Shown: one piece after another, positions 4,601 to 7,600 of the stretch
Layout of the letters: each line of letters starts with the position of its first letter
Numbering within the stretch: position 1 is the first letter of the stretch
Origin: Sycon ciliatum
Taxonomy: Eukaryota > Porifera > Calcarea > Leucosolenida > Sycettidae
Reading direction: 5' to 3'
DNA: 64,000 bases
Assembly: GCF_964019385.1 (NCBI RefSeq)
Contig: NC_088643.1
Location: 43,356,440 to 43,420,439 of the forward strand
Translations under genes and position numbers: made by a program
The notes under the pieces: generated by a model
Told to the model about the DNA's origin: nothing
What the model saw: only the letters and a program-made list of their open reading frames with translations
The model's database searches: none

Positions 4601-7600
4601 GACGGCCGTGGTGCACACAATTGCGGAGGATATGCACTCCAACCTCCTCCAGATACTACGAAGATCGTACTTCTCGATCATGCCCGACGAGTCCGCGGAT
4701 GTTTCTGTACAAGAGCAAGTGGCTGTTGCGGTCAGAGTGTTCAACAGCGATGAGGGCTGTGTCCGAACCTACAGCCTAGGCCTGCGTCCCGTGGACCAAG
4801 CCAATGCAGAGAGTATTTTCGGTGTCATCTCGTCCATGTTGGAAGACGGTGGACTGAGCTGGGACAATGTCATTGGGTACTGCTCGGACGGTGCCAATGT
4901 CATGCGAGGGTCACGCAATTCTGTTATGACCCGGATCCTTGCCAGGCAGCCCCATGCGTACACCCTCCATTGTGTATGCCATGTTGCACAGCTGTGTGCA
5001 CAAGCTGCGTGCGATGCCCTGCTACCGGATAATTTCCAGGACTGGCTTCAGCGTGTGGCGTACTTCTTTGACCGGTCTCCAAAAAGAACTGCCGCCCTGA
5101 GGAAGGTGCAACAAGAGTATGATGTCAAGCAGCACAAGCTAGTCAAGCCTGCGCCGACGAGATGGCTGAGCCTGCATGCATCTGTAATGCGGATGCTGGA
5201 GCAGTGGGAGGCCTTGCTCCACTACTTTCAGTCGTGCCCGGATGTCTGCCAACTGCAAAACGTAATGGACTGGGTGTCATTGATGGAGCGACCAGAAACG
5301 AAAGCGTATTTGCTGTTTCTGGGAGAGGTTCTCCCATTGTTTGTCACATTCAACCTCAGTTTCCAAAGTGAAGACGTGAAAGTTCACTTACTTTCAAAGT
5401 CCCAGGCCCAGCTGCACAGAATGCTCCTCTTTAATTGCGTGAAGGCTTCCGCAGTACGTGGCGCAGATGGCAACGTTGATACGGAGATTCAGCTTGACAT
5501 TTATGATGATGAGTTGGAGCTGTCAAGGCGAGACATGATTATTTCGGCAGACGCTATGGCATTGCTCGCCACATTGCCGGACGAACGCCGAAAGCGGTTT
5601 GCAACCAGAGTTCGCAGTTTCTACCAGACGGCTGTGGTGCAGGTCAGGAGAAGGCTGCCGCTAACGTGCCCAGTGCTGCGTGGGCTAGAGTTCCTTTGTC
5701 CTGTAGCTGGAAAGGACTGTGCTGCTCAAAGTGTTGCGGATGTGGCGCGTGCGTTTCCGCATGCTGTGAGTACCGGCAGCCTGGATGCGTTGGTCCGAGA
5801 GTGGCAGTGCTACCAGTGTACCACGCACAAGAACCTTCCCACGGAAGTTGACCGCTACTGGCATGCAATTGGGAGGCTAACCGGTATCAACGGCGATGCA
5901 ATGTTCCCAACGTTGTCGTCATTGGCTCATGCTGTTCTTGCTCTGCCACATTCAAATGCCGACATTGAGCGCCAGTTCTCAGCAGTGACTGCGGATAAGA
6001 CGAAGACAAGGAATCGAATGCAGGAAGACCTTTTGCAGTCGCTGATGACCATCACACAGAATAAGTCCTCCCAGGGGTTCAGCCCGACGGAGAAAATGCG
6101 TGAGCGCCTGCCTCACCATGTTGCTGTCGCTGCAGGCCATGCCGTAGGAAACCAGCAGCCCGTGGACCCAGAGACCATTGCTATACCTGCAGCACACGCA
6201 GTGCCCGAGCCGGAATTGTCGAGCAGTGATTCTGCGTCTCAGGCCCATCCACCCAGCACTGTACCTGCTAATGTGTCGCTGCCAGTCAATGCCGCACCTG
6301 CTCAGGAGTCCGTGCCAGCCAATGCTACGCCATCTATGCATATGCCTGCTGTTACTATCTCCAGGCGGATTTGGCGTGTTGGGCAGCTCTGTGAGTACTA
6401 TTTGCCGATGGAATGCTCACAGAGTTGTATAGATGGCAGAAGTGGTAGCAGTGCTTGTGCAGTGATTGCTACGTATGTTGTGTCAAGAGCATTACGTGGC
6501 CAGCTTGAGTTGCCTGCCCCAGGTGCACCACCCTCGCCTGCATGCACCAGCACCTTTATCGGCTGCATCCGTGATGGAAACCGCACATACGACGCAGCTG
6601 GATTGAGCAGTGCCTTCCTATCTGTGTATGATGCGAAGGACCTCATGCCAGCCTCCCACGGTGTGTGCGTGATGAAAGATGGTGATCTAGGTATCCGCAA
6701 CAATGCAGCCTGTAGAAGTGTGATGGAGAAAGCTGGCAACATGGCCATGAAGTGTGACCGCATCGTTGCTGGAGTGCTCGTGCACAACCCGTTGTGTATC
6801 GCCATTGTCTTCACACCACATGGCTTTGCTATTGTGTTCGACAGCCACCGTCACCGTGAGAAGGGACCAATGGTTGCTGTCCTGCGGCACAAGGCATCGT
6901 AGTCTGCCATGGGTGAGTTCATCCCGGGGCTGTTCCCTGGTAGCAAGCTGACTGACGGTCACTTTTGTATTCTGCAGGCATGTTGACTCATTTTGCTCTT
7001 CATGTAGTTGCATCTGAGTGCCAATTATCATTCTATTGTTGTTATTCGTTTGTTTAGTTTGTTTTGATTTCTTGGTTTATCGGGTTGGTTTTACTCTTTC
7101 AATTTTCATTTTATTTTTGGTGCTCTATTAAGCGCTATGTGGCTTATAATTTCCTTATTCTTCATTTTGTATTTTAGCGCTTTCTGGAGTTATCATTTTC
7201 GTTTTCTTCATTTTGCACCACATTATTATTTCTTGCAGATGTTTTAGTGCTAAGAAGAGGTTGGTGCGACTTCGGCAAGTCGGTAGGAAAAGCGTGAGCT
7301 CCCATGTAGGGAGCAACACACCCCTGTTTTAGTGCTACATGTAATTATTATAATATTGTCTTTTGGTTCAGTTTGTATTCTGCCAATTGTGTGCGTACAT
7401 CAGTAACCCAGTGGATTTTCTGGTATGCCTGGTATAAGTTGCTTTCCACTCTACTTGAATAGTGAAATATGATGGTATATCCCTGATAAAATATCTTTTG
7501 TTAATAGCTATGCACAGCGTGTTAATGCAAATGGGTGGTGAGGTGGCAGAGGACATTGATTGTTATGTAGTGGCATGTGTGTGTAGATAGTGGCGGTAGC

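Follow-up and report, generated by a model that had tools for sequence, protein, structure and literature searches.

We identified in the genome of the sponge Sycon ciliatum a recently mobile hAT transposon whose transposase probably carries, at its C-terminus and behind a flexible linker, a cysteine protease of the VTD (tegument deubiquitinase-like) type. The transposon lies in a DNA stretch of 64,000 nucleotides (contig NC_088643.1, positions 43,356,440 to 43,420,439 of the forward strand), hereafter the window, to which the positions given below refer. Structure models and sequence comparison support the assignment of the domain of this family as a VTD-type cysteine protease with a predicted Cys ... 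Asp-x-His triad.

The transposase frame and the predicted fold of its C-terminal domain

An open reading frame (ORF) of the + strand extends over positions 4125-6902, with 925 codons counted from a GTG and 924 residues when read from the ATG at 4128. Its parts are the following:

4128..6899, + strand: ORF for the hAT transposase, the linker and the VTD-type domain (924 aa from the ATG)
4605..4919, + strand: DUF4371 part of the transposase (Pfam, 34.3 bits; cut-off 32.1)
5901..6062, + strand: hAT C-terminal dimerisation domain (Pfam Dimer_Tnp_hAT, 31 bits; cut-off 21.4)
6093..6359, + strand: linker rich in Ala, Pro, Val and Ser, about 89 residues (limits set by eye)
6360..6899, + strand: putative VTD-type domain, about 180 residues, shortened in the window copy
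6420..6422, + strand: Gln765, 12 residues N-terminal of Cys777 and kept in most families
6456..6458, + strand: Cys777, predicted nucleophile, in GSSAC
6840..6848, + strand: Asp905-Ser-His907 in FDSHRH, predicted D-x-H of the triad

A Pfam search of the ORF returned only DUF4371 and Dimer_Tnp_hAT, and neither RepHel nor OTU/Ulp1 nor a Gypsy-integrase-like transposase was found. Both matches exceed the Pfam cut-off, the dimerisation domain placing the ORF in hAT, in agreement with the original prediction, a reading of the window from its sequence alone, which had called the N-terminal part a hAT transposase. Residues read by eye in NADIERQFS and in one other stretch are those which we take to be candidate DDE residues of the hAT core. 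The Ala/Pro linker and the stretch of about 180 residues behind the hAT part were seen in the ORF as that prediction had described them, and Cys777, His898 (within TPHGF) and Asp905-Ser-His907 are all found at the numbers it had given, counting from the ATG at 4128.

The fold predicted for the window domain, in which the last strand is missing, is papain-like and near to those of M48 and of the Helitron VTD. With Foldseek, Wc-VTD1 of Waddlia (8ADB/8ADC) occupied the top three matches, at 14-16% identity. The complete domain of a relative, P0003, also matched the tegument/VTD family by structure, in a model of low overall confidence. Two sequence profiles, A1 and A5, run against PDB sequences, retrieved 8ADB/8ADC at E values of 5.8e-5 and 1.4e-4, the sole solved protein found. 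The original prediction had read the domain as a cysteine protease of the tegument/C76 type and had named a match to a cysteine protease fold as a check; this match was obtained for the window domain and for P0003, it points to the tegument/VTD family, and the order of Cys and D-x-H is kept.

Copies of the element and conservation of the active site

The ends of the transposon were read from the alignment of its copies and gave the following features:

1870..7690, + strand: full extent of the hAT element, its private nested insertion included; the edges are where the sister-copy alignment stops
1870..1884: left terminal inverted repeat, CTGTGTTGCCACACC; this left edge is common to the window copy and four other copies
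7676..7690: terminal inverted repeat of the right end, CAGTGTTGCCACACC when reversed
1864..1869: left copy of the target-site duplication, ATATTA
7691..7696: right copy of the target-site duplication, ATATTA
2313..2709: nested insertion of 397 bp, missing from all four other copies read across that point

The two inverted repeats agree at 14 of their 15 positions. Each of the five copies with both ends read is flanked by a duplication of its own, 6 or 7 bp long (6 bp in the window copy); the textbook length of the hAT target duplication is 8 bp, with 5-6 bp in some hAT groups. In pairwise comparison, five copies are 0 to 8 bases apart in their ORFs, and the hAT family of the window copy has been mobile recently. 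In eight copies on different contigs or places the domain lies in an unbroken frame with the hAT end. One copy (L007/L052 in our numbering of genome loci) has indels in the core and a domain that is still open. The 397-bp insertion, private to the window copy among the five copies read, has inverted ends (CTACAGTCCATTCAGAAAAA) and resembles a miniature inverted-repeat transposable element.

The genome assembly (538 Mb, 313 contigs) was searched for the domain. The window domain gave 50 matches in its own genome, many of them at just 30-39% identity, so the domain is more than a chance stretch of open frame. Three queries combined yielded 54 matches, which lie at no fewer than 51 places separated by more than 4 kb.

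The columns of the catalytic Cys, Asp and His were examined at 49 loci. All three residues are retained at each of the 40 loci that span these columns in one frame; 22 of these loci are copies of two families, and the independent lineages number about eleven. Nine loci (L023, L024, L028, L031, L036, L039, L044, L047 and L049) were left out, being fragments or carrying frameshifts. In the long row of L047 a frameshift removes the D-x-H, which is present in the other frame; in one row of L031 the Cys column holds V, and the Cys lies in another frame. The Gln765 column is kept where covered, save in L033 and L035. A role of His898 as another catalytic histidine, comparable to His141 of M48, was considered and rejected, since other families have S, N, R, Q, C, D or Y in this column. 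Among the residues singled out by the original prediction, C777 and the D-x-H thus hold throughout, and His898 is peculiar to the window family; copies lacking C777 and the D-x-H, which it had named as the refuting case, do not occur among these 40 loci.

The search for the hAT core scored 64 of 244 candidates, so that the place counts are lower bounds: at least 57 places more than 8 kb apart, and at least nine with a VTD match within 8 kb. These nine are the eight copies of the window family and one older relic with a core 89% identical. The remaining 48 of the 57 listed places have no VTD match: one is a partial relic (76-88%), and at the other 47 the best match has an identity of 24-63%. 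In the 2.2-2.5 kb downstream of three of the 48, a VTD was not found (best E 0.97). A VTD in every hAT element is ruled out by these counts. The hAT-VTD fusion predates the present burst and is confined to one hAT lineage.

Other carriers of the domain in the genome

No hAT core was detected at most VTD loci: tblastn of the core at 1e-3 matched L001-L008, L023 and L024 only, of the 49. Fourteen alike copies (L009-L022) have a domain 38-39% identical to that of the window. In L009, DDE_Tnp_4 and HTH_Tnp_4 are followed by the VTD, and a YqaJ-like ORF that has no VTD lies tail to tail on the other strand. In eleven loci (L034, L037, L038, L040-L043, L045-L048) the VTD stands behind a YqaJ protein, and seven of them (L034, L037, L038, L040-L043) have a stretch related to the L009 DDE transposase on the opposite strand. 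A DDE transposase ORF and a YqaJ ORF in one element, the arrangement of ISL2EU, were found in L009 and in L037, and the carrier of the VTD differs between these families: the transposase ORF in L009, the YqaJ ORF in L037. An origin of the two arrangements by flipping of a central VTD piece was unsupported, since the YqaJ-borne domains form a clade (98/96) apart from the transposase-borne VTD.

ISL2EU-like elements with DDE_Tnp_4 and YqaJ ORFs were noted at L009 with L057 and L058 (C2:48932000-48941200), at L034 and at L037. The proteins P0003-P0005 combine YqaJ with a VTD-type domain and are 42-43% identical to L034.

The protein of L025 has a DDE_1 domain by Pfam, a type which we take to be pogo, and L029, L032, L033, L035 and L036 match the L025 transposase; in several of these six loci a stop lies inside the domain or between both parts. 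No fused or neighbouring protein was recognised at L027 (C10:1138488; no Pfam match at E <= 0.01) or at L062 (C3:35411586), both of which have a VTD-type domain.

A tree of 19 domains places the hAT VTD together with L027 and the VTD of the ISL2EU transposase (91/86); L029, L032 and L033 form a further clade (100/99), like the YqaJ-borne domains. The remaining forks are weak and several branches are long; the pogo labels of L026 and L030 in this tree rest on VTD similarity and not on a transposase of their own. We tentatively regard the VTD as a mobile module that has passed among unrelated cut-and-paste transposons of this genome (hAT, pogo-like and ISL2EU-like), a reading with a little less than an even chance, in which the hAT domain would derive from the ISL2EU-transposase type, with which it forms the 91/86 group.

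Points against the assignment and alternative explanations

Several results weigh against a working VTD-type protease in this element, the first of them from sequence and structure searches. Profile A2 gave no VTD match among PDB sequences, and the window domain alone gave no VTD or tegument match by sequence in PDB or Pfam. Pfam did not find a VTD in any of the eight members of A1; Herpes_teg_N had no match to the window domain and only a sub-threshold one to P0003 (E 0.0074). In a viral structure library, the window domain had 486 matches at E <= 10 and none at 1e-3, the best tegument match standing at 3.2e-3 and the others being weaker. The domain query P0001 against the protein collection gave 137 candidates and none at E <= 1, and the ORF query gave, for region 740-925, 395 candidates with P0002 as the sole match. 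Viral contigs searched with A2 (33 pattern matches) and prokaryote genomes searched with P0003 (25 pattern matches) contained no relatives.

The best match in the viral structure library, at E 2.5e-3, was an uncharacterised protein of Catovirus CTV1 (BFVD entry A0A1V0SAW3), possibly a giant-virus VTD.

Other contrary points concern the element itself. hAT elements do not need the domain, as the 48 listed places without it show, and the window copy is broken at its end:

6900..6902, + strand: premature stop codon of the window copy; all seven sister copies read through
6903..6986, + strand: rest of the domain coding region as in the sister copies (last strand), untranslated here; ends at the sisters' stop

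The original prediction had taken the frame to be intact; the frames of the seven sister copies extend 28 residues beyond this stop, and four of them, read from the start, have 952 residues against 924 in the window copy. The lost end contains GHFCIL, which aligns with SHLCIL and GHLCLL, the last strand in other families. Because the early stop takes off this strand, the protease of the window copy is probably impaired; the transposase part is still open. Relative to the four full copies, the window copy has three private amino-acid changes in addition to the stop, and no private silent change. P0002, a gene model or transcript translation with nine members, is 99% identical over the C-terminal region of the ORF, and it begins out of frame and without a stretch of the core. 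Its C-terminus fits, by eye, a 65-base GT...AG intron at 6913-6977; splicing there would cost the domain its last strand.

These observations could be due to the domain being a captured passenger, useless to the element and now decaying. The early stop and the hAT places without the domain are in line with this explanation, and so are four recent pairs of domains, with omega values of 0.65, 0.75 and 0.40 and, in one pair, no silent and five replacement changes; the recent copies compared include broken ones. These pairs do not show that the domain has been under strong recent selection. Against decay stand the triad, retained across about eleven lineages, the C-terminal position of the domain in three or more kinds of transposon, and the other nine of the 13 pairs compared. 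The latter are deep, with a proportion of synonymous differences (pS) of 0.72-0.83, saturated or nearly so, and a proportion of nonsynonymous differences (pN) of 0.34-0.51, which speaks for long-term constraint on the domain. The proposal that selection may keep the domain is thus borne out among the deep families and not among recent copies, and a mere passenger appears unlikely.

It is also possible, with a lower probability, that the domain processes its own protein, cutting in the linker and freeing a mature transposase, with a substrate other than ubiquitin. VTD entries ranked above AvrPphB in both models, that of the window domain and that of P0003, and the Asp-x-His order is VTD-like, whereas YopT-like enzymes have the conventional order. 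We consider improbable, too, and slightly more so, that the enzyme acts on another ubiquitin-like protein (UFM1, SUMO or NEDD8) rather than on ubiquitin: in the fold list of P0003 the VTDs scored 15.8-17.7 and UfSP2 7.5, and the six invertebrate, bacterial or transposon VTDs covered in the available part of Erven et al. 2022 (PMC9741609) are described there as ubiquitin-cleaving. An artefact of assembly or reading that joined two unrelated frames has practically no probability left and is refuted by the eight copies with a continuous frame and by the ends and target duplications described above.

Elsewhere in the window, long ORFs at 12919-17469, 40228-44278 and 61431-63464 appear by eye to code for proteins of BEL/Pao-type, LINE-type and Gypsy-type retroelements, respectively. 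A tandem repeat array at 49315-50720 is open in several frames and mimics ORFs of 435-464 aa.

Proposed function and comparison with known systems

According to published work, ubiquitin is cleaved by VTDs that have this triad, and their activity is lost when the Cys, Asp or His is changed. The sequence and models of the domain suggest that in intact copies it likely removes ubiquitin as well. It may, with considerably less certainty, act in cis on the transposase or on partners in the transposition complex. Transposase and protease being in one polypeptide, the protease would be tethered at this complex; stripping ubiquitin from the transposase or its partners would spare them ubiquitin-directed degradation. 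Alternatively, ubiquitin signals could be altered at the site of excision and repair. The presence of the module in the complex seems to matter more than the protein that carries it, because either ISL2EU-like protein can bear the VTD.

If the module is indeed passed among transposons, they would share a need, that of beating ubiquitin-based control of transposition, which any protein of the complex could serve. A single genome would provide three or more unrelated types of transposon with a deubiquitinase-type tail, some in several near-identical copies, and the role of the ubiquitin pathway in DNA transposition suggested by Bao et al. 2010 (PMC2836005) would become testable through one active-site Cys. 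Cut-and-paste transposons and a sponge would join the carriers through which VTDs may have reached animals and herpesviruses, as discussed in PMC9741609.

C-terminal OTU or Ulp1 domains on transposases and VTDs in Helitrons are already known. The literature searched, which covers few subscription papers, yielded no report of a VTD on hAT, pogo or ISL2EU, and the words hAT, sponge, Sycon and YqaJ are absent from the main text of PMC9741609. That paper proposes that Helitron VTDs protect proteins needed for transposition, and also refers to VTDs of cnidarians in fusion with several domains associated with transposons, which are not named. The domain described here resembles the Helitron VTDs (zebrafish DrT1-VTD2, 8ADD) in predicted fold, in Cys ... 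Asp-x-His order and in being carried by a transposon protein. It differs in its sponge host and in its carriers: RepHel is replaced by a hAT transposase or by pogo- or ISL2EU-like proteins. The sequence likeness of the window domain to VTDs is visible by profile only. Its top Foldseek match, Wc-VTD1, is described in the same source as a K6-specific enzyme of a bacterium, and identity to the large tegument deubiquitinase of herpesvirus, M48 (2J7Q; C76), is 12%.

Ginger1, according to Bao et al., has a C-terminal OTU or Ulp1 domain on its transposase, and these domains are proposed to act on repair factors during transposition. The present element is likewise a cut-and-paste transposase with a C-terminal domain of ubiquitin/SUMO-protease type; the transposase superfamily and the protease family are both different. 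In a 2015 survey (PMC4482050), PHIS elements are given as absent from sponges, to be compared with the ISL2EU-like L009, L034 and L037. L009 and L037 share with the ISL2EU elements outlined there the two-ORF plan of a DDE transposase and a YqaJ protein, and differ from them in that one of the two ORFs bears a VTD-type domain, a different ORF in different families.
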